From: Spizellomyces punctatus DAOM BR117
Taxonomy: Eukaryota > Chytridiomycota > Chytridiomycetes > Spizellomycetales > Spizellomycetaceae
DNA length: 64,000 nt
Assembly (NCBI RefSeq): GCF_000182565.1
Contig: NW_015971558.1
Coordinates: forward strand, 16,593-80,592
Direction: 5' to 3'
A program made the translations under genes and the position numbers. This document shows positions 6,511-30,463 of this stretch, one piece after another (the first letter of the stretch is position 1; each line of letters starts with the position of its first letter). Below the pieces are notes generated by a model. It searched no databases. It was not told the DNA's origin and worked only from the letters and a program-made list of their open reading frames with translations.

Positions 6511-7001
6511 TGTGACAGAATTCTTCTGTCAGTGCTAGGGTTATACTGGTTAGATGTGGTTCCAAACTAGTAGTCACATGACTTTGCTGATGGTGTCAGC
6601 ATTCATTTGACCAGAATTAGATAAATAAGCAGATTTAGCCATTTCTGGCTAAATTAGATGAGTATTCTGACACACTGGCATCTGCCCCTTTCAATCATGT
6701 GGCACAGTGTATTTAGGATGACTTGTCTCACTTCTGATTGGCTATAAGTGGTGCAATAGGCTGACAAATAGTTTAGGATGACATGTATGAGTTCTGATTG
6801 GTTGCAAATGGTGCAATAGGCTGACAAAGAGTTTAGGATGATGTGGGTGAGATCTGATTGGGTAGTTAGGATATAGCATTTGTCAGCCCCTTTGTCTATA
6901 AAAAGAGGACCTCTCTGAGGCCCCTCAAAAGGAAAATAACAAGTAGTAACCAAGTCTTCCCTAGTTTTCTGTTGTCTTCTTGTCCCTGCTAGCCTGTTAC
7001 A
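6511..7001 (+). repeat. Gypsy-1 5' LTR
   Basis: 491 bp, TG..CA ends. A TATA box lies at 6897-6904. Upstream are 60-bp units (6711-6770, 6771-6830, then a diverged partial from 6831) each containing CTGATTGG, the complement of a CCAAT box. Confidence 0.9.
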
Positions 7002-7062
7002 TGGCAGCACCACCTTAGACAACAACCCCAGACTCTTAGACCTTCTGTGAGAGATCAGAAGG

Positions 7063-7240
7063 TAAGATCCCCAGAGAACCCCAGAAACCCAGAGAATCCC
7101 AGAACCCCAGAGAACCCCAGAACTCCAGAGAACCCCAGAACTCCAGAGAACCCAAGAACCCCAGAGAACCCCAGAACCCCAGAGAACCCAAGAACCCCAG
7201 AAAACCCAGGAACCCCAGAGAACCCCAGAACCCCAGACCA
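7063..7240 (+). repeat. Low-complexity AGAACCCCAG tandem repeat in place of gag
   Basis: Roughly 18-bp periodic repeats of AGAGAACCCCAG. In one plus frame they encode repeated P-E-N-P-R-T units. They occupy the position where a gag gene is expected. The pol frame reads open through the last units. Confidence 0.85.
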
Positions 7241-7281
7241 CCCAGGCTGCCTACCAAGAAAGCAAGATCCATGTAGTAGAG

Positions 7282-10200
7282 GTGGCTCCATACTCTTTAA
7301 GTACCCCCAAAGGGCCAAGGATTCCCCAGAGTCACTTGCTGACTGTGCAAGGTAGAATCCAAGGAATCCCAGTAACCATTCTCCTGGATAATGGGGCAAA
7401 CCAACTCTATGTGTCACAGTCCTTTGTCAAGAAGGCACAACTGGTGACTCATTCTCTCTCTGGAGCAGAAATCTCTATGGCTGATGACAGAAAGCACCAA
7501 GAAATAGGCTTTGTCAAAGGTCTTCAGTACTCAGTAGGAACCTACACAGAACAGTCAGACTTTATAGTAGCCCCAATCAAGTTTGACTTGATCCTGGGTA
7601 TACCTTGGTTTGCCTGGAGGAATCCCAGTATCAACTACAACAAGAACACTGTGACCTTCACCACCTCCCAGCACCCCAGAGTCAGATGGTTTGTTAAGCA
7701 GGCCAGCTCTTCCAACAAATCCCAGAAGTCCAATCTTATCACCATGGTATCAGCAAAGATGTTGGCCAGAACACTGAAGAAGAGGACAGCAACAGCTTTT
7801 GCTGTGTATCTCAAGAACCCTCAAGATACCAGCACCCCTCCAGACACCATGGATTCCAAAGTCACCAAGCTTCTTGAAAACTATCAAGATGTCTTTGCTG
7901 AAGAGCTTCCCCCAGGACTTCCCCCTGAGAGATCAGTAGATCACAGAATTGAACTCAGTGACCCCAACCAGACCCCCTGGAGACCAACCTACCACCTCTC
8001 TTCTTTGGAGTTAGAAGAACTGAGGAAGCAGCTTTCAGAGCTTCTGGAGGCAGGCCACATCAGACCATCCAAGAGCCCATTTGGAGCACCTATCCTCTTT
8101 GTTAAGAAGAAAGAAGGTTCTTTGAGGATGTGTGTGGACTACAGGGCTCTGAATAAAATCACCATCAAGAACAGATATCCCCTCCCTAGGATTGATGAGC
8201 TGATGGATAGGCTGAATGGAGCCCAGGTGTTTACAAAGCTAGATCTGAAGTCAGGCTATTACCAGATCAGAGTCCACCCAGAAGACATCCCCAAGACAGC
8301 CTTCAGAACCAGATATGGTCACTTTGAGTTCCTGGTCATGTCCTTTGGAATGACCAATGCCCCAGCCACTTTCATGACTTTGATGAATGATGTCCTTAGA
8401 TCCTTCTTGGACATCTTTGTTATTGTCTACCTAGATGACATCCTCATCTACTCCAAGACCCCAGAAGATCACCTGCACCACCTCAAGCAGGTTCTGCAAG
8501 CCCTCAGGCAGAACAAGCTGTATGCCAACCCCAGCAAGTGCCAGTTCTTCAAGCAAGAAGTAGAGTTTCTTGGCCAAGGTACTCTCACATGAAGGAGTCA
8601 AGCTTGACCCCAAGAAAGTGCAGACTGTTCAAGAATGGCCCACCCCTCAGAGTGTCACTGAAGTCAGACAGTTCATGGGCCTGGTGAACTACTTCCATAG
8701 CTTTCTGAAGGACCTGGCAGAGCAAGCTGCACCATTGACAGACCTGTTGAGAAATGACAAGCCCTGGACCTGGTCTGAACCTCAGGAGAAAGCTTTTCAG
8801 GAGCTGAAGGATATGGTCACCAAAGCCCCTGTACTCAGACCCTTTGACCCAGCCTTGCCTACCACTGTCTTCCCTGATGCCTCAGGCTATGCAGTCGGTG
8901 CATGGCTTGGACAGGATGATGGGAAAGGCCATGAGACCAGTTGCCTACCACTCCAGGAAGATGGCCCCAGCAGAGACCAGATATGACACCAGAGAACAAG
9001 AGCTGTTAGCCATCCATGATGCCCTCAGAGTTTGGAGGCCCTACCTGGAAGGAACCCCCTTCAAAGTTATCTCAGACCACCAGTCCCTCAAGTGGCTACA
9101 GAACCAGCCCTTCTTGACCAGAAGACAAGCCAGATGGGTCATGAATTTCCAATCTTTTGACTTTGAGATTGGCTATGGCCCAGGAAGACTCCACACAGTG
9201 GCAGACATCCTGTCTAGAAGACCAGACCTGGCCCCAAGATGCATCAAGTGCAAGGCCTTGGTGACAGCAGAGTTGAATGCTGTGACCCACACCACCAGCA
9301 CCCTTCAAGAGAGATTGAAGACCAGTACCACAGAAGACCCAGAACTTCAAGAGCTCCTCCAAGCTTTGGATGACCCCAGGAGACCAGAAGACCAGCAACA
9401 AAGGCTCAAGTACCTCAGCCATCAAGATGGGTTACTCTATTTCCAGGACAGGATCTTTGTTCCTAGTGACCCAGACCTAAGGTTGAGCCTACTCCAAGAA
9501 ACTCATGACACTCAGTATGCTGGACACTTTGGCATCACCAAGACCCATGATGCCCTAGCAAGGCATTACTACTGGCCAAGGATGTACAAGGACATTAAGA
9601 AGTATGTCAAGTCTTGTGATTCCTGCCAGAGAAGCAAACCTAGTCAGCAACCACCAGCAGGCTTGCTGCAGCCCCTCCCAGTACCCAAGACCAGATGGAG
9701 CCAGATCTCCATTGACCTGATCCCTGACCTACCTATGACTTCCTCTGATCACAATGCCATCTTTGTCATTGTTGACAGATTGTCAAAGAGAGGCCACTTC
9801 ATCCCTACCACCAGCAGAGCCTCAGCCAAGAACCTGGCCCTGCTCTTCTTGAAGCACATCTTCAAGCACCATGGCCTCCCAGAAGTGATTGTATCAGACA
9901 GAGACACCAAGTTCACCAGTTCATTCTGGTCCAACTTGATGCAACTCTTAGGCTGCAACACCCTCCTAGCCACTGCAAGGCACCAGCAGACCAATGGACA
10001 GGCAGAGAGAACCATCAAGACTTTGAAGATCTACCTCAGAGCTTTCCTGGAGTACAACATGAAGAATTGGGAAGATCTTCTCCCCTTTGCTGAGTTTGCC
10101 TACAACAACAGTGTCTCAGAAACCACAGGCTTTACCCCATTCTACTTGGAGAATGGCCAGCATCCCAGGACCCCAGCAACACCACCAGGAGAAAGCCATG

Positions 10201-10775
10201 ATCCTGAAGCAACAGACTTCCACCAGTATATTCAGCAACTGCTTCAAGTAGCCAAGGCCAACATGGTCCTGGCCCAAGAAAGACAAGTTCAGCAAGCCAA
10301 CAAGTCTCTCAGCAAGGCCCCAAGCTACCCCCTAGGCTCCAAAGTTTGGCTATCTAGAGAAGGTATCACCCCAGAAGACGAAGCCCAGAGGCCAGCCCAG
10401 AAACTTCTTCACCCCTGGCTTGGACCTTACAGAATCAAGGCCAAGGATGAATTTCAGAATTACACCCTGGAGCTCCCCAGCACCATGAAGATTCATCCAG
10501 TGTTCCATGTGAGACTCCTCAAGCCTTACCTGGACCCCACAGAGGACTTCCCTACCAGACCGGTACCCCCTGAGCCTGAGCCAATTATCCAGCAAGGAGA
10601 AGAGTTTTGGGAAGTTGAGAAGATTCTGGACCACAAGATCAGAAGGAAGAAGAATCTCTACCTCCTCAAGTGGAAAGGCTATCCCTCCTCTCAGAACACC
10701 TGGGAACCAGAAGAAAACCTCCTACCCCATAGCAGAGAAATCTTGAAGGAGTTCCTAGCCCAGAAGGGAGCTTAA
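7282..10775 (+). pseudogene. Gypsy-1 Pol (protease-RT-RNase H-integrase-chromodomain), two frameshifts
   Basis: The frame is open upstream of 7282 through the low-complexity repeats, so the true start is unclear; 7282 itself is GTG. Order: protease with D-N-G-A near 7387 (usual D-S/T-G-A); reverse transcriptase about 7945-8570 with Y-L-D-D at 8429; RNase H about 8840-9230; integrase with an HHCC zinc region about 9500-9630 and D, D, E near 9711, 9897 and 10006; a C-terminal chromodomain about 10605-10740. One-base shifts near 8574 and near 8930 break the frame into three (7282-8592, 8570-8986, 8844-10775). Everything else is well preserved. Arginine is encoded almost only by AGA/AGG. Without gag and with two shifts it is non-autonomous as read here; sequencing or assembly error at the shifts is an alternative. 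Confidence 0.85.
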
Positions 10776-10791
10776 TCTTAAAGTGGGGGAG

Positions 10792-11404
10792 TGTGACAGA
10801 ATTCTTCTGTCAGTGCTAGGGTTATACTGGTTAGATGTGGTTCCAAACTAGTAGTCACATGACTTTGCTGATGGTGTCAGCATTCATTTGACCAGAATTA
10901 GATAAATAAGCAGATTTAGCCATTTCTGGCTAAATTAGATGAGTATTCTGACACACTGGCATCTGCCCCTTTCAATCATGTGGCACAGTGTATTTAGGAT
11001 GACTTGTCTCACTTCTGATTGGCTATAAGTGGTGCAATAGGCTGACAAATAGTTTAGGATGACATGTATGAGTTCTGATTGGTTGCAAATGGTGCAATAG
11101 GCTGACAAATAGTTTAGGATGACATGTATGAGTTCTGATTGGTTGCAAATGGTGCAATAGGCTGACAAATAGTTTAGGATGACATGTATGAGTTCTGATT
11201 GGTTGCAAATGGTGCAATAGGCTGACAAAGAGTTTAGGATGATGTGGGTGAGATCTGATTGGGTAGTTAGGATATAGCATTTGTCAGCCCCTTTGTCTAT
11301 AAAAAGAGGACCTCTCTGAGGCCCCTCAAAGGAGAAAAATAACAAGTAGTAACCAAGTCTTCCCTAGTTTTCTGTTGTCTTCTTGTCCCTGCTAGCCTGT
11401 TACA
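10792..11404 (+). repeat. Gypsy-1 3' LTR with expanded 60-bp units
   Basis: 613 bp, 122 bp longer than the 5' LTR, because the 60-bp CCAAT-bearing unit occurs three times (11052-11111, 11112-11171, 11172-11231) rather than once. TATA at about 11298. Otherwise nearly identical to the 5' copy. Confidence 0.9.
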
Positions 11405-11531: not shown

Positions 11532-14325
11532 ATGGAAGTCTGTGCAACAGAGGTATTACCTGCCCTTGCACATGCCAGACTCAGACACGTAGGACAACAT
11601 GTCCTAGGAAAGATGGCATCGGCTATGCTTGGCTGGCCCATAGTGGGGGCTCACAGTCATATGGACTGTGAGGCATGCATACTCAGAAAATCATCCCATA
11701 CACCATTTCCAGCAGCCAACAAGGAACCAAGAGAACTTTGTGAGCTGATTCACTCCAATCTACAAGGACCCTTCCGAATTACAGGCCTGACTGGAGAATG
11801 CTATGCTCTCACATACATTGAACACACCTCGAGGTATGGCATTATCTACTGCATCCCAAACAAGGAAGCAGAAACCATCCTCTCCAAATTCAAGGAGTAT
11901 AAGGCATGGATTGAATGCACCATGGACAAGAAAATATGCACTGTGCATACGGACCGAGGAGGTGAATATAATGGTGTCTTCCACAAGTACCTCACGGACT
12001 GTGGGATCCAGCACCAACAAACTATGGCATACTCAAGTCAACAGAATGGTATCGCTGAGCGCTGGAACCATACCAGCTTAGGGTGAGTATGCACCATCTT
12101 TGTGGACATGAAACTGCCATGGAAACTGTGGGCCATCCTAATACAAATGGTGACCTACCTCCACAACCTTACCCCCAACTCCTTGGGCGATAAAACTCCC
12201 CATGAGCTGCTGTTCCAATGCCACCCCAACGTCATGCACCTGAGGCGCATCAGCTGCGTTGCCTATGCCCACGTCCCATCTGCTGGTAGGGACAAGATGG
12301 CCAACAGAGCTAGGAAAACATACCTAGTGGGGTATGCCCAACAAGATGGCACCAAGGCCTACCTTGTCTGGGATCCGGTACGCAACACCATCGTGACCTC
12401 CAGGGACATCAAATTTAATGAAGATGCCCCTCTTGAACTCAAATATCAGCAGGACCCTAGCACTATGGATCTGCTGGATGAGACCACTTCCAATGACGAT
12501 CAGGAGTATCAAATTGACTACATCATGGATGAATGCTGGACTCGCGTGCACAAGCCCGAATACCTTGTGAAATGGCTATAAGGACCCTACCTGGGAACCC
12601 CGAGTCACTGTCGATGACACACAAGCACTGGACACATGGGAAAACCGCATCCAAGCATACACCGTCGACGCACATACAGGGAAAGTAAACCCTGAGTCCC
12701 TCACCTTCAAACAGGCGATGGCTACCCCTGATACCAATGATTACCTGATAGCCTGCCAACAGGAAATTGAATCCCTGAAGGCACACAGCACATACGTCAC
12801 TGTACCGCATCCGCCCCATAAGCGCATAATTGGCACAAAGTGGGTTTGCTGCAAAGTATTCAACCCTGACAGCACATTCAAGAAATACAAAGCCAGAGCA
12901 GTATGCCAAGGCTTCACCCAAAGGCCAGGAATCGACTTCAATGATATGTATTCCCCAACCTTACCACTTCCAATCCTCTGCCTCTTCCTCATGTACATGG
13001 TCCAACATGGATTGGACATACACTCAATGGATGCCATCACTGCTTTTCTCAACAGCAAAATGGACAAGGAAGTCTTCATTGAGCAATTTGAGGGCTTTGA
13101 ACTACCCAACAAGCCAAGGAAAAGCTGGGTACTGATGCTGAAAAAGGTGCTATATGGCCTGAAGCAGTCACCCCTCCTCTGGTACCAAACCCTTAGAACT
13201 GCCCTGGAAGAACTCGGCTACCGCATGGTGGAAATAAGCCCCTGTGTGTTCTACAAGTATGCCGCGCCAGGGCGCACCAACTCCGACATTCAGCCATCCC
13301 TGTCAATGCTCATAATCATAATGATCTTCATGGATGATCTACTGATCCTCACCAAGGATCCTGAACAAATGAACAAGTCAAAGAAGGAGCTTCATAGTAA
13401 GTTTTCCTTTATGGACCAAGGTCACATAACCAACCATCTAGGACTGGCATATGAGTATGACATCTCCGCGGACATAAGGACCCTCAAGTTCTCCAACCTG
13501 ATGTATATTGACAACCTGCTTGACCATTTCAAATTAATGAACTGCCACGCAATTGCCACACCATATGCTGTGTCCACACACAGTCAACAGATGCAAGAAT
13601 CAGCACATTTCCCTAACCCCAAGATATACCAAGAAGCAGTGGGGGCCCTTACTTGGGCTTCCATCTCATGGCGATGGGATATTGCCACTGCGGTCGGATA
13701 TGTTGTGCACAACGTCAGCACACCTACCCAATGTGATTGGGAGGCAGTCAAGTGTATCTTCAAATATCTGAAAGGAACAAGGGACTTTGCCATTACCTAC
13801 ACATCCCTGGAGAAAGATCCCTGCGGTCTCAGGGTGTATATGGATGCGGACTATGAAGGCAACCTCTCGGATTGCAAATCTACGTCTGGCTTGCTAGCTA
13901 CCTGGAATGGCTACCCCATCCATTGGAAAAGCAGCAAGCAAACCTGTGTTGCCCATAGCACCACAGAAGCAGAGTACATCGCAGCAAGTGTGGGATTCAG
14001 AGAGATCCTCTGGATATGCCAAATCCTCGCGGATGTGTTTAGGCCCATTGCTGGCTTCCAGCTCCTACCCACCCCTCTCCATATTGACAATGAGAGTGCT
14101 GCCACTTTAGCCCAAACCAAGGCCATAAACCAACACATGAAACATATTGATGTGCATTACCATGGTATACGTGGAGGCATTGCGGATAAACAAATTGCAA
14201 TTCTGGACACGGATACGAAGGAGCAGATGGCTGATTACTTCACCAAGCCATTAACCCAGGAGGATCATAATCGATTGAGACAGAGAATCCTGAGTGGACT
14301 GGATAATATTCAAATGTGCGCGTGA
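11532..14325 (+). pseudogene. Copia Pol: integrase, chromodomain-like segment, RT, RNase H
   Basis: GAG-pre-integrase zinc region (H..H..C-x2-C) at about 11570-11690. Integrase core follows: the first catalytic position reads H-S-N-L where D is expected (about 11755), the second is in H-T-D-R-G-G-E (about 11950) and E in G-I-A-E-R (about 12052). A TGA at 12084-12086 interrupts the frame, which then continues. At about 12505-12650 lies a chromodomain-like stretch with E-Y-L-V-K-W and T-W-E-P, broken by a small deletion near 12578. RT runs about 12718-13500 with F-M-D-D-L; RNase H about 13790-14300. The 535-codon RT-RNase H frame (12718-14325) is intact. The element cannot be autonomous. A chromodomain between integrase and RT is unusual for copia in my experience. 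Confidence 0.8.
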
Positions 14326-14453
14326 CCCACGTACGTGGCAGCAAACTTTGTGGAAGTGCAACTGGATGATAATGGTGGAATGCAAAAAATGAATATGAAT
14401 AATATTATCTACACAGCAACACCCAAACCACCCAAACCACCAAGTCCGCCTGC

Positions 14454-15278
14454 TCAGCCTGCACCACCAAATCCACCAAAGGGACCAAAAGGACCATCCC
14501 AACCCTCCAAATCTTCACCCTCCAACTCCTCCTCTGTCTCCTCCTCCTCCTCCCCTCTCATCACCTCTGCAAACTCCTCCCCCTCATCCGTCACCACCTC
14601 TTCCAAGAGCCTGGTCAGCTTCGCGATCTCATCACGTACTGCCCCAGCAGCCTTCTTCTTTGCTCTGTGGGCTTTCTCACGCTGGACTTCACTGGGAGGG
14701 AAGGCAGGCAGCCTTCCTCTTCTCCAAGATCTATTAAGGGCCAGATCTTGGAGACCACAATATGTGCCCAGCACCCCCAAACAGATGGGACTGTGTACGG
14801 GGAGTGACCGCATAACATCTCATTCAGTCCTGGCCAGGCCCAAATGCCTTTGCAACACCTCTTCCCGGTCTTTCCAGTGCTGCAAAAAGGTGCACCAATG
14901 AGCTGCCTCTACAAACTCCTCCTCCACTGCACTCAGCTCGCACGCAGGCTTGGGTACCTTCCCCACCGCTGTGGCCACCTTTCTCTTGGCTGTCAACACC
15001 ACAGCCTCAAAAACCCCTCTCCTGCGTCTCTCCTCCAAAACAGGAGTCTCCCTTGCTCTGCCTGATCGTCCCGCACTCGACCCCACACTTGGCGTGGTGG
15101 TCTTGGCCTCTGAAGGAGGAGGGGCTTGGAAAAGCCCCGGTTGCTCCGTAGGGACCAAAGGGACATTGGAACTGGCCACGGAGCTCTCCGCCGTCATCTT
15201 GCACAACCGCCGCAAGAACAAGGTACGCAAAGTTTCACTGGGAACTTTGCCTTTCCCCTTCTCTTCCTTGGGGGCCAT
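14454..15278 (-). pseudogene. Antisense ORF in the 3' region of the copia element
   Basis: Minus-strand frame starting at ATG 15278. It is interrupted by one in-frame TGA near 14817-14819 and then runs on to 14454, about 275 codons in total. The first half is Ser/Pro/Ala-rich and basic with W residues near its end; the second half has a long helical, strongly acidic stretch (runs of E, D) and a Gly/Phe-rich tail. It is not a recognisable gag: no zinc knuckle or capsid motif. It sits between RNase H and the polypurine tract on the opposite strand from pol. The plus strand here is only low-complexity Pro/Ser coding. The gene may be cargo or a former antisense ORF of the element. Confidence 0.5.
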
Positions 15279-15470
15279 AATACAAAAAAAAAAAAAACTG
15301 GAAACACCATTAGCAGCTAGCCAAATGAGCTCTGCAAGTCCACAATGCTGTTGTGGCAGGTCTTACAGTTGATAGAAGTCTGTGTGAAAGTGTAGAAAGT
15401 TGGTGGGCGATGGGTTCTTGTCTTGTAAAGAAAAATAGCAGTTCAGACTTTTGACAGGTCTGAGTGGGGG

Positions 15471-15608
15471 TGTTAGCAATCACAGGTAGCAGACCTCTAA
15501 GCCACTTAACCGCTATGCCATGCGGGCGCATCTTCACTGCGCCACGCGCATCGCTAGATTTCTTTTGCGTTGCTAGCTAGTATATTCAATAGTGACTTCT
15601 TAGCATAC
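15471..15608 (+). repeat. Copia 3' LTR, truncated
   Basis: Begins TGTTAGC directly after a purine tract and ends where the gypsy-2 LTR begins. Only 138 bp remain. Confidence 0.65.
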
Positions 15609-16147
15609 TGTAAGGTAGACCTGTCCTTTGGTATTCGCACGCAAGTGCAAACTTAGATTTTTGCAACGCGTCTCTCATATCCCCATATATAGCTATAGTG
15701 ATCATGTAGCCATGTATGGCCAAAGTATGGCACAGCACGTAACAGTAGTTAGATTATGTAAGCCCCGCCGCACCAATGACCTGTCAAAGTCGTTCGGTTC
15801 TGCGGCAGCCCCGTAGTTGGAAGATCATTTGTCCCTTTATTTTGCTAGTGCCAATCACTTCCGATTGGTGCAAGAGGGACTGCACTGGCAGAGGTGGGAA
15901 ATCTCATGCCGACACCCTGCCGAAGGAGGGAGCAAGCATAAAAGAGCGCTGCTCCAAAGCCCCTCAAGGAGGAGGGCAGGAAGCAAGGAAAAAACTAGAA
16001 GAACAACTAGCCTAGTTAGCACGCAAGGAACTATCAATAGTTCCCTTTCTCTTGTATTAACAACAAAGTCTTTATACAGCCCTCTCGCAGGGCCCAACAA
16101 TTTGCAAGAAAACGTTGACTGAAGCAATCTGGTCGATTGACATTACA
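15609..16147 (+). repeat. Gypsy-2 5' LTR
   Basis: 539 bp, TG..CA. Contains a perfect 8-bp-arm hairpin (GGAACTATCAATAGTTCC) near 16027. Confidence 0.9.
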
Positions 16148-17607
16148 TGGTAGCACCACCTGAGACTACCACACATGATACGGAATCAGAAGACATTCGA
16201 CCCTCTATCATCTTCGACCCATTCGCCTCTGATAAAAACTCAGAAGCTTCTACCTTCAGCCCAGAGCCCCGTGAACAATCCAAAATGTCCAAAGATGATC
16301 ACCCGTTCATCACCATCAAGGAAGAGGGAGAGGACCCAGTCTTCCAATTCGAGGCTGTACCATGGAACAACCAGCCGCCGCAAGAACCAGGGCCCGCACC
16401 GATGCCACCCCCACCACAGCTGCCAATCCCTCCAGGCACTGGTCATCTAGACAGGCTCCTGGTAACCCTCACCAACCTAGCGCAACAGCAAGCATTCGGG
16501 AACGTGATCACGCAACAAGCTGCGGCCAATGCTGCAGCTGCCCGCCGCATTGAGCGCCAGCAAGAAATGATGATTAATGCAATGCTCAGCACACTCAGGG
16601 CATGGTTGCATATGTACAATGGCACACCAGATGCTCGTCAACTAGAAGAGTTCCTAGGAGCCCATAGGAGCTACCTTTGTGTTGCACATGCTAATGAAGG
16701 AAGAAGATCGGATGTGGAGGCACATATCCAAACCTATCTCACAGGTCCAGCTTTAGATTGGTGGCACAACTGGGCTAGCTTCAACCATCATGCCAATACC
16801 CTTGAGGAGCTGGAAACTGCCTTTGTTCACAGGTTCATCCCCCATGACTCTCGAAATAATCTCCACCAGCGGTTCTGGAACTTAATCATGGGCCAGAGTG
16901 TCACAGAGTACACCCAGGCCTTTAATGCCCTTGTGGGAGAGGATATCTTAGGCCATCGACTTACAGGCTGACCTAGAATACCAGATGCCAACATTCTGTG
17001 ATACTATATGGAGGGCATATGCTGAAACCGTGGAGTAGGAGAAGCATTATATAATCATCTCATCTCAATGAAAACAATGCTGTCACTAATGAATGATGAA
17101 GAAGATATATTGGTCCCCCTACAGCAGAGCCTTCATATGGCATATAATGATCAGGGACTCATCAATCGAATTGGTGCGCCCGCACCATCCTCAACCACAC
17201 CAAGTCGCCTGTCCACTTGTGGACGAGGATCCTTCTGTGGCTGCATGACATCCACAGTAACCCGAGGTGCCACTTGGCCAGTAACGAGAGCAAGCTCTGG
17301 CATTGTTTGCAATAACTGCAGAGGAAGAGGGCATTATGCTCGTCAATGCCCATCCACTCCAGTACAAGCTGCCCCGTACCCCACGCAGTCGCCACGAGGT
17401 CCAGGAAGTCCTCGTGGACCCGGACAACCCTCTACCAGAGGTACAGGACCAGGAAGGGGATGTGGGGTCAGAATGTCCCAATCCCAGGTTCAATCAACAA
17501 CAACTGAACACCCTCCAATTGAGTACCAATCCATGGAGGTTGACGAGCCCACCTGGGCAGAGCAAGAGGAACCATCCTCAATTGAAGAAATCTTTGAGGA
17601 TGAATGA
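16148..17607 (+). pseudogene. Gypsy-2 Gag, frameshifted
   Basis: An open stretch of 274 codons (16147-16971) has a Pro-rich N-terminus and a retrotransposon capsid-like region with A-L-D-W-W and a following F-V-H-R-F. The frame breaks near 16940. A second stretch (17068-17607) carries a CCHC zinc knuckle (C-x2-C-x4-H-x4-C, about 17311-17355) followed by a Pro/Gly/Arg-rich tail. Structural nucleocapsid function in an intact relative; non-functional here. Confidence 0.8.
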
Positions 17608-17739
17608 ACGGAGGATTTTTAGCAAAGCCGCTGACTGCCCTGATCCCTTCAATGGCTATGGTACACATGCACGAGGTCATTGTACCATGACTACCAGATC
17701 AGGACCAGAAGGAAGAACCATTACATTGCAATGACCCCA

Positions 17740-20700
17740 AGATCAAAAGTCCTGAGATTGAGGAACCCTTCATTATCCATGGATGTATTGGCGATAAGTT
17801 TGCTAGAATATTATTCGACACTGGATGTACAAGCTACCTCATCAACAAGAAGTTTGCAAACTGACATCATTTCGAACAGTATGCTCCAGAGCAACCCCTT
17901 CGGATAAAATGGGGCGAAGAAGGTTCTCAGAGCCTATCAAACTTGATGATAACCTCTTCACTAGTCTTGTCCAATTCACAACCTCGAGGATTCATAAACC
18001 TCGGGAAGATCCCTTTCGTTGTAGCAAACATTGGCATTGATGCAGTGATAGGGTTACCTCTATTAAAACTCCTTAAGCAAGTCTCCATCGATTGGACAGC
18101 ACAACAACCAACCCTTCGGTTTAACTTTAACAATGTGAGCCATAACATCGAAGTGCAATGGACCAGCAGAGCATGGAAGCCACTGCCTCATATAATGCCG
18201 CCCATCTGAGAGGATTCGGCAAACATCCCTCATGGTTTATTCAACCCAAGATGATATGGGATGAATGCTCCTCCAAGCGATTCGACAAAGATATCAAATG
18301 TAACAGATACCTGACAGCATGGAGGATCCAACCAGAGGAAGTCGATGATCGCTATGTGAGTTTCCATGTAGCAAGGCTCTACGCAAAAGGCAAGAAAAGA
18401 AAAGGAGAGTTTGACACAGCCGATAATGGATGCACAGGATTCCTTAGGGTTACACTCAATAAATAAAACAACACGCTTTTTACCGAGAATGGCGAGTTCC
18501 CCCCAGACAGAGGGGAAGACAATTTTAGCATTGAACTCCTTCCTGGAGCTAAACCACTCACATACCCCTTACGGCATATGAGTACCAATGAGTTAGAGGA
18601 GCTTCATCGACAGCTCAATGACCTCCTAGCAAAAGGACGAATATGACACTCCACTAGCCCCTGGGGAGCCCAGATAGTGTTTGCCAAGAAGAAGGATGGG
18701 GGATTATGAGTATGTTTAGACTATCGAGGACTAAACGCCATAACCAAAAAGGACTGGACCCTGCTACCAAATCTACAAGAGATGCAAGATTGTGTAGCTG
18801 GTGCAAAGTTCTTCACAAGTATCAACATCAAAGACACTTACCATCGCATTAGAATAAACCCATGCGATGTGGAAAAGACCGCCATTCATACACGATTTGG
18901 ACACTTTGAGTATCTGGTAATGCCTTTCGGATTAACTAATGCTCCAGCTGCATTTCAGCGCCTCATCAACAAGATCCTTGGCCTGCATTATGATGACCTA
19001 GTCCTCGCCTACCTCAATGACATCCTGGTATTCTCCAGGACAATGGAGGAACACCAGAAGCATGTAGATATTGTGCTTCAAGTCCTAACTGAACACAAAC
19101 TCTATGTGAACCCAGCCAAGTGTATGTGGGGACAACCTGAGGTTGAGTTCTGTGGACATATTATCAGATGAAATGGAATACGGATTGCTCCTAGCAAGAT
19201 CCTAGCTGTCCAAGACTGGCCACAGTTGCGAAACCATCATGATGTCCAATGATTCTTAGGATTAACTAATTACTTCATTGACTTCATCAACCGATATGCA
19301 GAAATTGTGATGCCCCTCTCACAACTACAATCTGGAAAGAAAACATGGCAATGGAAAGAAGAAGAAAAAGCGGCATTCGAAAAGATCAAAAATGCTATTA
19401 CCACTGCACCTGTCCTGGTGACCTTCGACCTGACTAAAGACACTTTCATCTTCACTGACTCATCAGGATTTGCGATCGGCAGATGGCTAGCCCAGACCAC
19501 AGACCCGGAAGATGAGATACCATCTCCGCTGCTGAAAACCATTCAAGAACTTAAAGTGCTACCCCATCTATGACCAGTCTCATTTTACTCCCGTAAGATG
19601 AAACCTGCTGAGATGCAGTATCCAGTTCATGAACAGGAACTTTTAGCCCTAGTCAAGTTCTTGAAACATAACTGCCCATATCTGATCGGTATCTTCTTCC
19701 ACACCTTCACTGACCATAAAAGTCTGATCTACCTCCAGATGCAGCCACATCTTTCCTGACGACAAGCAGGATGGGTTGAAACATTACAACAATTTGACAT
19801 GATGATCAAATACATGCCCGGACAAGTTAACCATGTTGCGGACATTCTTTTGCAGAACCCACACTATGCACCCCAATGTACAGAGTGTCAACAATGAATC
19901 CAGTTGCAAGCCATATTAGTTGCCAGCACCGAGACCATGCTAATGCCATTTAATCACAAAGAATGGATTCAGCCACTGAACCAAGACAATTATGCCCTTA
20001 CAATAATCAAGATGTTGAAGACAACACCAGCCCATGCCTTAGGATCAAGGCTACAATGCTATGCAATACAAAATGACCTCCTAACTTATGAGAAGGACTG
20101 GCTATATGTACCAGAAATGGAGCATACTAGAATCTTACAGCAATATCATGACAGCCTAATAGATGGCTCACACAAAGGCCAACAACACACATTAGCTAAA
20201 ATTCTATGAAAATTCTACTGGCCTCACCTCGAACGTGACGTCTATGCATACATTCGGACTTGTCCTGAATGCCAACAATACAAGAACCCTTTATGAAAGC
20301 ATGGGTTTTTGCGACCATTACCAATCCCTAATAGTCGATGGCATACAATCAGGTTTGATATGACTTATATGCCTCCGGGCAATAGCACCCATGGATTCCA
20401 ACCCGACACCATTCTTTGTTTTGTCAACTACTTGACTAACTGGACCATCCTCGTACCAACACTCCAAGCTTCCAACACTTGTGATCTTGCACAGACATAT
20501 TTGTCCCAAGTCTACAAGAATGTAGGAGCATCCAGGATCTTTATTACTGACCACAACCTGAAAGCCCTTTCCAATTTTTTTGAGGCCTTCTGTAAAGTCC
20601 TTGGTACGAAACACCAATTTGCTAGCACCCGACACCAACAAACTGATGGCAAATGCGAATGGATGATACAGACAGTAAAGTCCATATATCAGCTGTACCT

Positions 20701-20970
20701 CAACTATGCAGCAGATAATTGGCCACAGTATCTTCCTCTCCTCAAGTTCACATTGAACAACACCCCGAATCAACATGGACTGACACCATTCAAGGCAGAT
20801 ATTGGGCAAATGCCCTTACAAGTGGATGGAGTCATTACTTCCACAGAACTCCAAATGATGAAACCTATCGACCGAAATGAGATTAAGGACATCAAAAAAG
20901 CAATGGATGAAATAGCTGTAATTGTTCAACACCACATGAAAGAACTACAGGATAAATATGCAGAACACTA
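17740..20970 (+). pseudogene. Gypsy-2 Pol, left part (protease, RT, RNase H, integrase)
   Basis: Degenerate protease with F-D-T-G-C near 17815. RT about 18590-19170 has Y-L-N-D at about 19010 instead of Y-L-D-D, so the first catalytic aspartate is lost. RNase H about 19440-19860. Integrase zinc region about 20150-20290, catalytic D near 20353 and 20547 and E near 20655. The frame is crossed by stops, nearly all TGA: 18644, 18707, 19169, and near 19249, 19571, 19757, 19895, 20207 and 20293. At three of these the equivalent residue in gypsy-1 is Arg. The integrase C-terminus continues at 30468 after the inserted gypsy-3. Confidence 0.85.
20967..20970 (+). other. Left target-site duplication of gypsy-3 (ACTA)
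   Basis: ACTA directly before the TGTAACGG LTR start, matched by ACTA at 30464-30467 directly after the LTR end. Removing the element plus one ACTA makes the gypsy-2 integrase reading continuous. Confidence 0.75.
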
Positions 20971-21569
20971 TGTAACGGATTTTTTGTTGGTAGACTACAG
21001 TAAAGACAACTTGGGTCTCCTAGCAGGTTGTGTGGGTGTCCGTACTAGGAATCGTAGTCTCCAAATCCTTTCTTTGGGCGTCGGTAGCGACTTGAGGGCG
21101 AGAGGCAAGGAGAGTCGGTTAGTTGTGAACCGAGCAGGATTTAGAGGCTTCGGTACGGGTGATCAGGCCGTTGAAGCGCTCTGTTAGGTTCCTGTTAACC
21201 TAAGATTGGAGTTGAGAAGCGAGTTATGGGGATTTTTGTCGCTACGGCTTCTGCCCCCGACTTATTTTATTGAATACATCCTTTTTATACAAGATTCTTG
21301 GATAAACTGTTAAACTAAACTAAACTAATGGGTGTCGCTGCACCGCAACTGATTTATTGGTGGCGGTACCGATCTCTTCCTTTTCCGCACTGGCTCGGGC
21401 CTCCACAGGTTGTACGAGGCACGCTGAAATCTAATGCGCCAATTGCCATTCTCCGAACCGGTTTTTTCGGTCGCGGTAACCCAATCGGTGGAGTTGGTCA
21501 CGCGATTCGTGCTTCCCGCGTCCGATTTGGGCTTACTCGCGATCTCTCGAAGACGTCCTCGTCGTTACA
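20971..21569 (-). repeat. Gypsy-3 3' LTR
   Basis: 599 bp; plus-strand ends TGTAACGG and GTCGTTACA. Adjacent purine tract on the minus strand (plus strand reads CCCCCCTTTGAAG at 21571-21583). Confidence 0.9.
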
Positions 21570-21626
21570 TCCCCCCTTTGAAGAGCCAACGCACCGGCGC
21601 TCCGAGCGGGGGTGTTGGGACGTCAA

Positions 21627-24600
21627 TTACCAGGTCGGTACCGGATCTGTGGGGTCCGCTTCATCTGCATCTTGGTTCACGACCCAGATGATACTGGCAC
21701 GGCCACCGACGTTGCAACAAAACCAGATTTGATCTGTTGCGGTACGAACGATGGTACCCGGGGTCACGTCGGGGCCAGTTCTGGTTACGTAGAGGGCCGT
21801 AAAGGTCTCCGCGGCCCTTTTCAGGTTTGTCGCGCGGAAATGGTACTCCGCGTGCTCGTGATGTCGGGGTCTGGTGAGCCTTGCAGAGGCTTCCGCTGCG
21901 TTCGCCGTCCTTAGGAGCACCGTCCTAGCTGCTTCAATGACGGCGGACGCAAACTCGTGGGCGTCGTCGTTCGGCCAATCGGTGAACGGAGCCGTTTTTC
22001 GGCTTCCCGCCTCGTGTTGGGGAACCCCGCGGTCGAGCCAAGCGGCGCACGGAGCTGGGCGCCCTCTTTTTCCGGGTTTTTTCGCGTCAGCAACTATTCC
22101 GACCGCTGCTTCACCACCATCGGTGGCCTTGCTGTAGGGGTCCGCGATGTGGTTTGTGAGGGGCTGGCCCACCGCGTAAGGTTTCGGAGCGTCGACTCCC
22201 AGCCAAAACTCATGCCCTGGAGTCTGCAGCGGCGCGTTGGGGTTGGTCCGAAGCTGATGAACCCAGGAGTGAACCCAGGTAGCGATCGCAACCCCAAGGC
22301 GATCCAGCACGCCCTCGGCCTCGAAGTCGCCCGAGTCTTCCTCCCAAGGGTAGCCGGACATGTACGTGGAGGGTACGCTCACTCCTGCTTGTCCTCTGAG
22401 ATCGGTGTTCATTGTGTTAGAAATGGAAGTTTTAGTTTCGGTGTCGATAGAAGGGGTTTGCGAAGCAGAGTGAGTGTGTAAGGGAAGTAGGTCGTGGGCG
22501 GTTGAAGAAGAAAAAAGAGGGGGAGCGTGCAGGGGCGTCCTTTTAAGGTCGTCGCCGGCTGATTTTGACAGCTCGGACGCGCGTAAGCGTGATCGGGAGG
22601 CTTGGTGTGGCGTTCTCGACTGGTGAGGTAAGCCACGCGAAACTGGTTTTCTTTCTGGTGAGAGGGCGTGATTATCACGTGAGCTATCGTCCGGATAAAC
22701 CGCGAAGCATTGGTGGTCGGAAGCATAAGCCGTATCTTCCGGGGCGTCGCCTGCAAGGCTGACTACCAAAGAGTCCTCTACTAGCGCGCTAGTGGGAGCT
22801 CTGGATCTCCAGTACTCTTCTAAGGCTTCGGAAGCCTCTGTTAGGGCTTCCTCTGGTTCCCAGGTATCCTCATGGGGTGGGTATCCGGACCAACGTATTC
22901 GAAATTGACGTTTTCCGCGCCTGGTTCGATGGTCTACTATCGCTTCCACTTCAAACTCGCCATCTGAAGCGTCGGAATCCTCCGCTTGTGCTTCCGCGAC
23001 CTTTTCCTCAGTTTCGGCGTCGACAGGCTTCTGGTACGGACGTAATTTCGATATGTGAAACCATGGATGAAGTCGTCTCATCTTGTCTGGCAGTTTTAAC
23101 TCGTAGTTGTCGCGGAGAGGGTTACAGTCGGTCACCGTGACTGGTCCCAGCCATTTCGGAGCGATCTTGGACTCATACCCTGCTAGGTTTTTCGTGCTCA
23201 GAAGCACCTTATCTCCTCTCCGGAACTCCAAATGTCGTCGCGATAAATCGTAATATCTTTTCTGCGAATCCTGGGCTTCGATCATCAGATCTCGGATAAG
23301 GATGTTTAGGTCGCCGAGGTGTTTACAGAGCTCTTCCGCATCTGCATTTCTGGTTTCTGACGGCCTTTCAACGATGTCCGCCAGTGGATTGTGGGGCTCA
23401 TAGCCTAGGTCCATTCTGAATCGCGTCATTTTTGTCGCCTCGTGTACCGTATCGTTGATAATGAATTCCGCAACCGGAAGAAAGGTGTCCCAGTCGTCTA
23501 ATCGGGTGTTGACCATTGTGGTAAGGACCTGCAAGACCGTTGCGTTGTCTCTTTCTGATTGTCCATCACCTTGAGGGTGGTAGGCTGTGGTGAGCTCTTG
23601 ATTAATCTTTAGGTTTTTGCAGACCTCCTGCCAAAATCGACTCGTAAATTTGGAGTCGCGGTCCGAGATAATGGTCTCCGGGATGCCGTGCAATGGGACG
23701 TAGCGCTCTATAAAGAGTTCCGCGACCTGAATAGCTGTCGCAGTGCTCTTGAGGGGCCATACGTGGATCCTCTTTGAGCATTTACATGCTATTAACCAAA
23801 AGGCGTCGTACCCTCTGGAAGTAAGTGGGAGCTTGGTTACGAAGTCAGTCGTGATGACTGTCCAGCGTCCCGGAGCTGGTGGTATGGGTTTCAGCAACCC
23901 CGGAATCAGTTGCGGTACCCTTTTTGAGCGTTGACAGGTTTCACATCCTGCGCAGTGTTTTCTGAAATCTTGTGCCATTTTCGGCCACCAGACTTGCGCT
24001 GCAGCTCTAGCGTAGGTTCTTTCGAATCCGAAGTGTCCTCCCCCCTCGTGAAAAAGCTTGCGCACCTCAGGGGTGCAAGCAGGGGGCACGTAAAGGCGCC
24101 AAAGGTCTTCGGAGACTGAAAAACGGTGCCACAGCAGGTTATCTGCACGTTGCCAGTCCTGAAGAAAGCGCGTGTCGGCGGTAGTGTACGTGTCGGGGCT
24201 GGTCTCCCATAGGAGCGTGCGGGCCTGTTGGGCTATGGGGTGGAGCTGGCCGGTGAGGCCAGCGCGGATGGCGGCAATGAGTGCAGGCTGTAAGGCCAGA
24301 CGAAAGACGGCATCTGCCAGTGTCGAGGAAGGTGCGAGAGCAGCTGGTGTGGTGCGCAGCCGTCGTCTTCCGCGTTTCGACACCCATATTTGGGTCGCGG
24401 TGGAGCAGAGTAGAGTTCCGCGCCAAGTAGCCCGCGAAAGTGTATCAGCGACTATGTGGCAGCGTCCTGGTTTGTGTACGATTGTCATCCATTCGGACCA
24501 GTAACTAAGATCGAGGGCCCAGCGGAGGAGCTTTCGGTTCTCGCCTTTGTATTTGGCGAGCCACAAAAGAGCTCGGTGATCGGTAATGACCGTGAAAGGC

Positions 24601-27600
24601 AGGCCTTCGAGGTATGGGCGGAGTTTTCCGAGGCCCCAAATGAGGCATCCGGCCTCGAGTTCGACAGGTGGGGCCTTCTTTTCCGAGGTGGTGGTGCCTC
24701 GGGAATGGTAGCACAGCGGGCGTTTAGAAGCATCCGGCTGTAACTGTTCGAGCGTGACATTAAACGCTGTGTAGGAAGCGTCACTGTGAAGGGTGTAGGG
24801 GAACCCTTTTCTGGGTGCCGCAAGCACTGGAGCTGTTGTCAGAGCCTGCTTGGCGGCTGCGAAGGCAGAGTTTCGGGAATCGGTCCATGAAACTTCACGC
24901 TTCGCGATAAATCTGCGCAGACCTTGGTCGGGGCGCTTGCGAGCAAGGCGTCCGACACAAAAGGGGTCAATGGGCAAGTCCGCCAACGATGAGTGGCGTA
25001 GATTGACCGCCGGTAGGTCTGAGGAGCTAGATTTCGGATGTTGCGAAACCTCAAATCGGGCTCCAGTGGCTGTGATTGTAGGGGCCACCGCCGTGTCGAG
25101 CATGGATGGTGAATTGAGCTTTTCAGCGCCTTTCTTTGGGTCAGCGCGACCCTTTTTAAGGTCTCGGTATTCGCGAACGCCCTCTTGGATAGCGTCTTGC
25201 AGGGGTCGGACGAGTTCCGCGTAGCGAGAAATGAATTGGGCGTAGAACCCTAGGAGACCCACGAATGACCATAGGTCACCTATGAATTTGGGTCGTGGCC
25301 AATCGACTATGGTTGCGACCTTGTCTGGATCGGTAGCGAGACCCTGAGAGGAGGCAACGAAACCGAGGGCCGTGAGCTGGTGAAAGAGCCATTGACACTT
25401 GTCGAGTCTTAGGGTGAGTTTGGCTCTGGAAAAGCGGTCGAGCCAGTCCGCGATGGCGTCTAGGGCTTCCGCGGCTGTCTCCGCTCGTGTGTGGATATCG
25501 TCGACGAAGTTGTTGATATTTCGCCATTTGGAGGGACCCAAGGTGTCGTCCATCACCCGACAGAAGTGCGAGGGGGCAGTCTTGGGTCCGAAGGGCATAA
25601 AGAGTGGTTCGTAGATGCCGTCATGGAGTCTGAGCGCGAGCCATTTGCGTACCGACGCATCGGTGATGGCGATTTGGTAGAATCCTTTGTTTGCGTCACC
25701 TCCCGATATGTATCGGAATGGGACTGCGACGATCCAGTTCAGGATGTCGAGCATGATGGGAAAGGGATATGGATCCCAGGCCATGCAGTCGTTGGCTCGG
25801 CGATAGTCGAAGGCTACGCGCGGGGGTTTGTCTGCATAGCGAATGATAACAGGATCGCTGGCGAAGGTTACTTCGGTGGTTCGTTTCCACCTCTGAAGCC
25901 CCATCATGGTGTCTCGCTCCGTCTCGAGGGCTGTCCGCTCCAACGGAGAGTACGACCGTGGCCTCGAAAGGGGTGGCGGAGCCGAGATAAATCGAGGCGC
26001 ATAAGGAATCTTGGTGTAGTTCCCTATGAGATGACCCTCATAGCTGAAGGCTTGATGGAAGTGTCGTAGAATGTTGATTAGGGCCCAGACCACGGGTTTG
26101 GGTCGCTTGAGATCGACGTGGAAACGTTCCGCGTCTTTTAATTGGGCTTCGAAGGCCCCTGGAGCCCTCTCCGTAGAGTCGAGGTTCCATTTGTTCCGAA
26201 GTGTCTGCCATTCTTCTTTGGAAATGTTCTCTTCGGGGTCCGCAACCGAATTATGGGTCGCGGTGGACAGTTTGAGGCCTAACGGGACCGTTGAGCTAGC
26301 AGCGGTGGCCTCAAGAGGGTTTTCGATGAGAAAAGTTTGGGCTGCCACGCGCGTCTGTCCCGTGATTAACATGGTTAATCTAGACTTCTGAGCTTTGGCT
26401 TTGGTCAGCCGTGGCATTGACACATCCTTCATGAATTCACCCTGCTTGGTCTTGTATGGCGTGCCGCGCATGTGATCGGTGTCCAGCTCATCCGTTATGG
26501 AGCAGGGGATAAGGATGTCTGGATTCTTGAGCGTCACCGCGAAACTGGGTAACGGGGGTTCCTGAACCAAGGTTTGGAGTTTCAAATGTCCCAAAACGTC
26601 GTTGGCTAGGATGATGAGAGGTTTCCCGTACGCGATGACCCGAAAGTAGGCGCGGAAAGTCAGGTATTCTCCGCCGCGGCCTCTGAGGGAAGTTTCGAGG
26701 CATACTGTCTTGGTAGATGAGATACGTCCACCAATGCCGTTGAAAGCCATCGTTTCCGCATCCTGCAAATCGGTTTCGGAGAACAGAAGGCCTTGGTACG
26801 TGTCGGAAATCAGAGACTCGCAGGCCCCTGTGTCTAGTACCACAGGTGCCCAGAGCTGCGCGATGACGGCTAGCGTCCAGCAAGGCTGCGTTTGGGTCTT
26901 AGTCTGGCTTTTGAGTACATCGCCTAAATCTACTGAGTAGAAGGCGTTGATAGAAGGCACCGCGATCTCGAAATGGGGCGCGATGTCGTTAATTGTTGCT
27001 TCCGTAGCCTTGATCACACTCTCAAAGTGTTCTCTAGTTTTGTCGTTTTGTGGTTTTGTTGTTTTATTCTGGCGAGCAACTTGTTCGATAGCCAGCATGA
27101 CTATACGCGTCCGTTCGCTCTCTTCGTGTCTTTGGAGACGTGGATGGTCTTTAACGTGCCGAAATTTGGGGTTTCCGCGACGATAATAATAGTCTGAGCG
27201 AACGATATTGCCTGTCAGGAGAAATGCCACCAGTTGCAGGTTGGCGTACGCATCAAAGATAACAGGATCTTCAGAGCTCCACATCAAGAATTTCTCGCGC
27301 TCGTCGAGCTTTATCCAGGCAAGGAGAATCAAACGAGGGGTACCGTCTTCTCGGACCTTTCGCAGGATTCGATCCTTGTCAGCTTCGGCTGCGGCAGCGA
27401 TGTAGAGGTGGTGGGAACTCCACGCGACTGCGTAGGGGTCGTTCCCGAGGTGCCCGGCGCCTCGCTTCGGTTCTTTGGCGAAGAAGCTGAGCGCGCGGGG
27501 GTTGTTGCCCATCATCAGAGCCACTTGCGGGGTGCCCCAGATGATGGCTATGTTGTCCCAGACTCGGTCCCAGCCCTGCGTGGGCGTGCGGGGGTCCTCT

Positions 27601-30193: not shown

Positions 30194-30463
30194 GGATAAA
30201 CTGTTAAACTAAACTAAACTAATGGGTGTCGCTGCACCGCAACTGATTTATTGGTGGCGGTACCGATCTCTTCCTTTTCCGCACTGGCTCGGGCCTCCAC
30301 AGGTTGTACGAGGCACGCTGAAATCTAATGCGCCAATTGCCATTCTCCGAACCGGTTTTTTCGGTCGCGGTAACCCAATCGGTGGAGTTGGTCACGCGAT
30401 TCGTGCTTCCCGCGTCCGATTTGGGCTTACTCGCGATCTCTCGAAGACGTCCTCGTCGTTACA
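29864..30463 (-). repeat. Gypsy-3 5' LTR (full copy)
   Basis: 600 bp, matching 20971-21569 almost perfectly. Followed directly by ACTA (30464-30467). Confidence 0.9.

Follow-up and report, generated by a model that had tools for sequence, protein, structure and literature searches.

The window, a stretch of 64,000 nucleotides from the chytrid fungus Spizellomyces punctatus DAOM BR117, contains a retrotransposon, gypsy-1 (6511-11404), that is almost free of CpG, which raises the questions of how this dinucleotide was lost and how coding capacity was kept. The exact count was 3 CpG against 277.9 expected from base composition (observed/expected ratio, O/E, 0.011), in a window with a G+C content of 48.2% and an overall CpG O/E of 0.784. 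The three sites, at 8896, 10379, and 10561, are those that an earlier note on this DNA had counted by eye, and its estimate that hundreds would be expected agrees with the computed value, which rules out chance as the cause. In the three open pieces of the window copy, CpG occurred 3 times, while 194 (s.d. 9.6) were expected for the same protein under host codon usage, and Arg was written as AGA (53) or AGG (22) and never as CGN (0), as the note had described. Host codon use was rejected as the cause. Host genes had CpG odds of 0.92 and write most Arg as CGN, and the claim of depletion thus withstood the comparison with them.

Gypsy-1 is a family of chromodomain Ty3/gypsy LTR retrotransposons with the order protease, reverse transcriptase, RNase H, integrase, and C-terminal chromodomain, ahead of which gag is present in a sister copy (L017) and missing in the window copy (Table 1). 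The LTRs have the ends TGTGAC...GTTACA (TG...CA), and those of the window copy shared 490 identical bases among the 491 aligned, besides 122 gapped bases, in line with their earlier description as nearly identical; differences in LTR length within the family are due to 60-base spaced repeats, and the copy number of the tandem repeats coding for the PQRTPE-type linker also varies between copies. The further description of this copy as nearly intact did not hold, because it is without the gag region of approximately 1.7 kb found in L017, carries two frame changes (near 8564 and 8890) in a region that is one open frame in L017, and has no 5-base target-site duplication; it is itself a defective derivative. 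Among the five elements with both ends, this duplication was found at L017 (ACATT) and L021, and the window copy, L018, and L020 had none. In L017, the gag and pol domains are open and the LTRs are identical (554/554).

Table 1. Coordinates of gypsy-1 features and of other elements in the window.
Feature	Position	Strand	Remarks
5' LTR of gypsy-1	6511..7001	+	491 bases; 0 CpG (~20 expected)
Likely primer binding site	7002..7031	+	First bases 3' of the 5' LTR (TGGCAGCACCACC...); read from sequence
Tandem repeats, 8+10-base spacing	7047..7262	+	Coding for PQRTPE-type linker before protease
Aspartic protease (RVP_2)	7354..7671	+	PF08284, E 4.8e-08
Reverse transcriptase (RVT_1)	8101..8577	+	PF00078, E 2.1e-43
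Stretch between the two frame changes	8564..8894	+	RNase H start
CpG private to window copy	8896..8897		TG in 11 other aligned copies
RNase H domain	8925..9158	+	PF17917
Integrase, H2C2 zinc-binding and core	9468..9962	+	PF17921; PF00665 below its cut-off
CpG private to window copy	10379..10380		AG in 10 others
CpG private to window copy	10561..10562		CA in 9 others
C-terminal chromodomain	10608..10757	+	PF00385, E 5.5e-19
3' LTR of gypsy-1	10792..11404	+	0 CpG; exceeds 5' LTR by 60-base units
Decayed elements adjoining gypsy-1	11532..20300		CpG odds 0.42
Copia reverse transcriptase	12718-14325		In decayed elements
Second gypsy clade, reverse transcriptase	18497-19159		2 TGA at Arg positions
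Gypsy-3, comparison	20966..30421	-	CpG-rich chromodomain element
Gypsy-3 single frame	21627-29186		2519 aa

Seventeen places in the 24.0-Mb genome, picked because they match gypsy-1 and totaling 73.4 kb, contained 35 CpG where approximately 4,300 were expected, and the O/E ranged between 0.000 and 0.032 at all 17 of those examined. L017 had 2 CpG against 378 expected, and a single CpG was present in approximately 9.1 kb of LTR sequence (32 stretches). Relative to same-protein expectations, 1 CpG was seen in pol against 215 and 1 in gag against 49.5, while a second gag type, approximately 71% identical in DNA, was equally CpG-free. Since the lack of CpG was found across the whole family, decay after insertion of the window copy was rejected, as the earlier note had argued; its view that the loss occurred in the lineage and not in the copy, with coding kept, is supported by the depletion at 17 of 17 places, the second gag type, and the open gag and pol of L017. 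The CpG-free state covers LTRs and coding sequence alike, the proteins being kept through synonymous choice (Arg as AGA/AGG and almost no C at the third position before G), and gypsy-1 was either CpG-free before the two gag types split or became so in both.

Other elements of this genome show what CpG-specific decay looks like. In dead, diverged gypsy-3 LTRs, 79 of 115 CpG had changed to TG or CA, whereas other C/G transitions numbered 28 of 667; in a related gypsy clade, all in-frame stops were TGA (13/13), 9 of them at residues where gypsy-1 has Arg. One stretch (L027, 700-2837), not similar to gypsy-1 and consisting in part of a decayed gypsy-3-like LTR, had 0 CpG against 81 expected, and decay alone can therefore also reach zero. 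Gypsy-3 itself is CpG-rich, as previously stated (symmetric odds ratio 1.05; 597 CpG in the ORF against 501.5 expected), and long open frames were found for it at several places too, so that the loss of CpG is not required for success. A copia family of the same genome showed the trend seen in gypsy-1 in a less extreme form.

Regarding the host, a DNMT5-like gene was found as a methylase frame and an SNF2/helicase frame on one strand, 24 bases apart, with a RING domain below the cut-off; the two frames probably form one DNMT5-type protein. The methylase frame matched 7r76 with E 3e-278 (listed as DNA repair protein Rad8), which we take to be the DNMT5 of C. neoformans, and the nearest DNMT5 proteins, among those of up to 1.75 times the query length, were from chytrids, namely, Phlyctochytrium arcticum (63%) and Rhizophlyctis rosea (55%). 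Another gene, in the window, had matches over short segments to proteins of zoosporic fungi. The genome also encodes one SRA domain and Pre-SET domains. Together with the CpG-specific decay of other elements, this repertoire fits the suggestion of the earlier note that CpG methylation or a CpG-directed defence was the cause, and we propose that CpG maintenance methylation of the DNMT5 type marks CpG in the transposons of this host. 5mC is described as confined to transposons in Spizellomyces in the available text of a previous study (PMC12695648). Two statements in the available texts count against an explanation by methylation: a review reported that, in early-diverging fungi including chytrids, 6mA has almost entirely taken over from 5mC as the main mark (PMC13297926), and 5mC was concluded not to be a substantial shaper of base composition across eukaryotes (PMC12695648).

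CpGs arising in single gypsy-1 copies are not shared between aligned copies. All 28 CpG sites, of which 23 lie in pol (12 sequences) and 5 in gag (8 sequences), were present in one copy only, and none was common to two; 23 of 237 private variable columns made a CpG, whereas 0 of 394 shared variable columns had CpG in at least two copies (p = 8e-11), with 6 of these 394 carrying it in a single copy. CpG-creating transitions were under-represented even among private changes (8/497 vs 47/970, p = 0.0013), which suggests that some CpGs simply mutated back, whereas CpG-creating transversions were not (13/969 vs 29/1951). Non-transmission fits reversion and elimination alike, and does not tell them apart.

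The shortage of CpG-creating transitions would also be expected if the pattern were a passive footprint, namely, if an old and heavily methylated lineage had lost CpG by the deamination of 5mC while purifying selection kept its proteins, with no advantage in the loss itself. The raised TpG and CpA of gypsy-1, the exclusive use of T in the twofold C/T codons before G of L017 (73/73, repeats included), and the conversion of CpG to TpG/CpA in dead elements of the host, which went to zero in L027, point in the same direction. However, the fourfold sites before G of the first gag/pol type carried A 95, T 48, G 21, and C 1 times, and T, the product of deamination, was thus in the minority at 48/165, against approximately 76% expected under C-to-T conversion; the second gag type had 24/57 against 79%. 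The missing C was not mainly replaced by T, and deamination alone therefore does not explain the loss. Moreover, of the 19 conserved Arg columns, 14 retained Arg and the remainder had K (3), L, or S; C, H, Q, and W did not occur, and AGA/AGG cannot be reached from CGN by deamination. We consequently regard a purely passive origin as unlikely, although it is the alternative that deserves the most attention. A clearly outnumbered T before G in the first gag/pol type (p = 0.0002), an excess that the second gag type did not show (p = 0.83); Ile codons before G favored T (10 T, 4 A). A model of elimination fitted only with a weak transition bias, and at a bias of 3 the second type was fitted no better than by conversion.

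The best reading, to which we assign a probability of approximately 0.65 from the sequence comparisons, is that host CpG methylation, through mutation and silencing, keeps removing gypsy-1 copies that bear CpG. A new CpG would allow the host to methylate the copy in which it arose, the methylated copy would be silenced and/or its CpG mutated to TpG/CpA, and new insertions would be seeded by copies without CpG. A CpG-free copy could persist and keep jumping in heterochromatin, since a CpG maintenance methylase would find nothing in it to act on and it would have no CGA to turn into TGA. That the family escapes methylation, and does not simply bear its footprint, is our inference, and the CpG-free yet protein-coding state looks like a durable means of evading a CG-directed defence. 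A stronger version, which we put forward tentatively and at rather less than even odds, is that the whole-length CpG-null code is an evolved, maintained, and heritable counter-defence, in which a copy gaining even one CpG would drop from the transmitting pool and the fourfold sites next to G would, in at least one type, have shifted to A, which is one step more distant from CpG than T is; this may have arisen twice in one fungus, fully in gypsy-1 and partly in the copia family, against a DNMT5 maintenance methylase.

The codon use of gypsy-1 is unlike that of the host, with C at the third position of 264 of 460 fourfold codons before non-G and Arg written entirely as AGR in L017, and a 63%-identical protein was found on an environmental contig (P0001). 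These features would be consistent with a recent arrival from an organism poor in CpG in its genome or codon usage, in which case the pattern would have come from outside and would not reflect adaptation to this host. Nevertheless, two diverged CpG-free gag types are both present in this genome, which indicates that the CpG-free state has been maintained either in this host or for a long period, and the CpGs are not common to the copies found here and the copia family has the same trend; we consider this origin very improbable. No DNA of gypsy-1 relatives was found among the viral contigs and genome contigs searched. Selection at the RNA or translation level, by a CpG-sensing RNA defence or a codon-pair preference, would reach the same extent, since the LTR and internal sequence are both contained in the genomic RNA of LTR elements. 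Host genes, however, with the CpG odds given above and T favored over A before G, follow no such general codon-pair rule, CpG mutation at the DNA level is evident in other elements, and we know of no CpG-sensing RNA defence in fungi, such that we give this explanation equally little credence. C-to-T mutation with a CpG signature is on record in the transposons of some fungi, as stated in the available text of PMC4352252, and a RIP-like burst may be envisaged to have removed all CpGs at once. Such a burst would leave TpG/CpA and broken frames, whereas gag and pol are open in L017, Arg was kept, and T was not favored at fourfold sites before G; it was rejected on these grounds as barely conceivable.

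CpG is also avoided in the coding sequences of small DNA viruses and RNA viruses of vertebrates, in which depletion is usually partial; gypsy-1, a genomic parasite of a fungus, stands at approximately 1% of expectation or less. In its gag, protease, reverse transcriptase, RNase H, integrase with SH3_Tf2-1, and C-terminal chromodomain, gypsy-1 resembles the chromoviruses (Tf2-like SH3), although its nearest proteins were no more than 63% identical among the matches listed. The MIP/RIP-like decay of transposons in Microbotryum and rusts, as far as described in the available text, involves C-to-T change at CpG, as in the diverged gypsy-3 LTRs of this genome (PMC4352252); the elements there are damaged, whereas gypsy-1 is the undamaged CpG-free counterpart. 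The only precedent found in the open-licence literature for CpG-free or CpG-depleted transposons escaping methylation was ONSEN (ATCOPIA78) of Arabidopsis, the LTRs of two copies of which are described as being without CG or CHG, which its authors count among counters to silencing (PMC3907296). Both are LTR retrotransposons without CG sites in their LTRs, apart from the single CpG mentioned above for gypsy-1, and ONSEN is active. The loss in ONSEN is described, in the available text, for the promoter/LTRs, whereas in gypsy-1, a fungal Ty3/gypsy chromodomain element that writes Arg as AGA/AGG, it extends over the whole coding element, gag and pol as well as LTRs.

Elements rich in CpG and carrying long open frames, dead elements whose CpGs have decayed, and a CpG-free family with recent insertions thus occur together in one genome, which amounts to a natural experiment on the control of transposons by CpG methylation. 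For Spizellomyces, methylation data from nanopore reads as well as RNA data have been produced, and a transformation method is cited in the available text of PMC12695648, and the question is therefore open to a direct test. Should the CpG-free family prove to be expressed and free of methylation, the escape would lie in CpG content itself; if it is silent anyway, silencing there would not need CpG methylation.

Regarding the gypsy-1 copy in the window, a member of a chromodomain Ty3/gypsy LTR retrotransposon family, the earlier note had counted three CpG dinucleotides by eye, and both the number and the positions proved exact, against 277.9 expected from base composition. The observed/expected ratio (O/E) was 0.000-0.035 in the four 1-kb windows lying wholly within the copy, and the CpG odds were 0.92 at 33-64 kb of the window, which is occupied chiefly by host genes. 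The open pieces of the copy contain 3 CpGs, versus 194 (s.d. 9.6; minimum 169 in 300 draws) expected for the same protein written in host codon usage from 3,902 host codons, and Arg is encoded by AGA or AGG in 75 of 75 cases, as had been stated. Among the strand-symmetric dinucleotide odds of gypsy-1 (CG 0.01, GC 0.78, TA 0.58, AT 0.80, CA 1.33, AG 1.38), CpG is by far the most depleted. The description of this copy as nearly intact cannot be maintained: the gag region of L017, a sister copy, is missing, and frame changes near 8564 and 8890 distribute the protease, reverse transcriptase (RT), RNase H, integrase, and chromodomain over three frames. Its LTR pair shows 1 mismatch in 491 aligned bases plus 122 gap bases, and it has no target-site duplication.

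Features in the window and in two fetched genomic stretches (L022 and L027)
Feature	Sequence	Coordinates	Strand	Remarks
Primase/helicase-like open frame, 891 aa	window	1789-4464	+	weak D5_N match, E 2.4e-06
gypsy-1 copy	window	6511-11404		
Linker repeat in gypsy-1	window	7047-7262		encodes PQRTPE-type linker at gag-protease junction; also in L019, L020, L021; number varies among gypsy-1 copies
Direct repeats	window	15609-16149, 31522-32064		89-93% alike, 15.9 kb apart; have the appearance of an LTR pair from an earlier gypsy element that received the gypsy-3 insertion
gypsy-3	window	20966-30421	-	CpG-rich chromodomain element; single 2519-aa frame
Duplication of 603 bases	window	28988-30130		gives second, partial copy of gypsy-3 end
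Ty1/copia-like long frame	L022	207-2327	+	706 aa
CpG-free stretch, not gypsy-1	L027	700-2837		partly resembles decayed gypsy-3 LTR; similar pieces in L026, L016

Across half of the primase/helicase-like frame, identity to phage primase/helicases is about 21%; a PDB search at an E threshold of 0.1 returned 0 matches, and no relatives were found in viral_contigs. This frame may be what is left in the chytrid of a DNA virus or of some virus-like element.

A protein search of the genome (24.0 Mb, 29 contigs) with the RT gave at least 53 matches, distant families included, eleven of which were 96-100% identical across 326-330 residues, and an LTR search gave 63 matching pieces. Gypsy-1 sequence was present in 16 of the 20 stretches fetched, which with the window makes 17 places, fewer than all genomic copies. 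All 17 are CpG-free or nearly so (O/E 0.000-0.032), with 35 CpGs in 73.4 kb versus approximately 4,300 expected (summed rows), versus an O/E of 0.10-0.87 in the non-gypsy-1 parts of the same stretches. Ten of the 11 CpGs in the L018 element lie within a foreign 513-base insert, which matches a repeat present in many of the loci examined. The LTRs contain a single CpG in a total of about 9.1 kb (32 stretches). L017 has open frames for gag (332 aa) and pol (1345 aa), domain matches to gag, protease, RT, RNase H, integrase, and chromodomain, and 2 CpGs versus 378 expected. Because the LTRs of L017 (554/554 identical) and L021 (0 mismatches in 491 aligned bases) are without mismatches, and target-site duplications are present (ACATT and CAAAT, respectively), the CpG-free form inserted recently.

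A second gag type was found in two fetched copies, L022 and L026; that of L026 is 71% identical to the first type in DNA and 69% in protein, and has 1 CpG versus 59 expected. The CpG-free state is present in two diverged types of gypsy-1, with coding retained. The next clade in the genome, the RT of which is 37-54% identical to that of gypsy-1, retains 0.24-0.67 of the expected CpG (six rows). Since this clade retains CpG and both gag types are near zero, the near-zero state is later than the split of that clade, and most simply predates the parting of the two gag types. On the 41-kb contig C28 (L029 and L030), gypsy-1 and copia stretches are in mirror order, an arrangement suggestive of either a large palindrome or an effect of the assembly. 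LTRs lacking CG and CHG sites have already been described for the retrotransposon ONSEN in Arabidopsis (PMC3907296), and CpG-directed decay was previously known in fungi (PMC4352252); no report of a coding element that is CpG-free along its full length was found among the open-licence papers listed.

Other elements in this genome have undergone CpG-specific decay. Five gypsy-3 LTR stretches that have diverged to 76-92% identity with the CpG-rich window LTR were compared with it (ten matches above 93% or under 200 bases, including the window's own copies, were set aside): 79 of 115 CpG sites have become TG or CA, 29 are kept, and 7 are otherwise changed, versus transitions at 28 of 667 other C/G positions (Fisher p 1e-55). 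In the RT of the related clade, in-frame stops are TGA in 13 of 13 cases, which are partly non-independent because some copies are near-duplicates; 9 face an Arg of gypsy-1 and the others H, H, M, and K, a pattern that would fit, and be mostly expected from, CGA-to-TGA changes. Decay by itself can reach zero, as in the L027 stretch (0 CpGs versus 81 expected). The Ty1/copia-like frame of L022 has 20 CpGs versus 123 expected and encodes Arg by AGA/AGG in 33 of 35 cases; akin stretches occur in L020, L024, L026, and L028, and this family adjoins gypsy-1 in several clusters. Long open frames are likewise present in a CpG-rich family of this genome, several distant RT matches being located within 2528-aa frames.

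CpGs are not common to gypsy-1 copies: each of the 23 CpG sites in a pol alignment of 12 sequences (the first 310 bases and L022, L025, L026, L028, and L029 left out), and each of the 5 in a gag alignment of eight, is confined to a single copy. CpG was made in 23 of 237 private variable columns, versus 0 of 394 shared variable columns with CpG in at least two copies (p 8e-11), and 6 of the 394 have CpG in a single copy; since private changes include many unseen by selection, these counts show non-transmission of CpG among the copies seen, not its cause. CpG-making transitions were threefold rarer (8/497) than other T-to-C or A-to-G changes (47/970), which fits rapid reversion through deamination, and CpG-making transversions were not rarer (13/969 versus 29/1951). 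More than reversion is needed because of the pattern at fourfold sites, and both the mutational removal of CpG and the loss of CpG-bearing copies are likely to have operated.

If methylation and deamination acted alone (conversion), C before G in fourfold codons is expected to become T. In L017 gag and pol, with the pol repeats left out, fourfold third bases before non-G were C 264, T 85, A 69, and G 42, and before G were A 95, T 48, G 21, and C 1; T thus accounts for 29% before G versus 76% predicted by conversion (p 4e-36). Over three codon sets, log-likelihoods were -131, -90, and -74 for conversion and -76, -68, and -56 for C dropped in proportion. For the elimination of C-bearing states, in a simple model built for the present analysis, they were -71, -65, and -65 with a transition bias of 2, -83, -66, and -75 with 3, and -101, -69, and -88 with 5. 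Conversion is therefore worst or near-worst, and elimination is tenable only with a weak bias. The second gag type has T at 24 of 57 fourfold sites before G, where conversion predicts 79%, with A not in excess over T; Ile codons before G favour T (10 T, 4 A). The host T:A ratio is 212:152 before G versus 296:351 elsewhere, a preference opposite to that of the first gag/pol type. At 19 Arg columns conserved in 60 relatives (of 120 listed), gypsy-1 has Arg in 14 and K (3), L, or S in the others; retention was lower in 4 of the 60.

On contig C3, a cytosine methylase frame (1107 aa; PDB 7r76, E 3e-278), the nearest named relatives of which are from chytrids, is followed 24 bases on, on the same strand, by an SNF2/helicase frame (1078 aa) with a RING domain below the cut-off. 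The pair would have the DNMT5 architecture, provided that both frames belong to a single gene. The sole further methylase-family match was one short frame, which we take from its motifs to be DNMT2-like. The searches also gave 1 SRA match, 2 Pre-SET matches, and 15 Piwi matches, several of which are pieces of one gene. Published work reports 5mC in Spizellomyces exclusively within transposons, and describes 5mC across eukaryotes as without a substantial effect on base composition (PMC12695648). According to a 2026 review (PMC13297926), DNMT5 is a maintenance methylase for CpG that depends on ATP, and in early-diverging fungi 6mA has nearly taken the place of 5mC as the dominant mark.

For gypsy-1, we infer a mechanism with methylation as the agent, targeting to heterochromatin, and escape from silencing. 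Chromodomain integrases, as a class, are thought to direct insertion toward H3K9-methylated chromatin. DNMT5-type methylation is described as operating in such chromatin in Cryptococcus (PMC13297926), and the chromodomain integrase may place gypsy-1 there. A CpG in a copy located there would be open to methylation, which would then be maintained, and the methylated CpG would lead to silencing or mutate to TpG or CpA. CpG-free copies would offer the methylase no target for maintenance.
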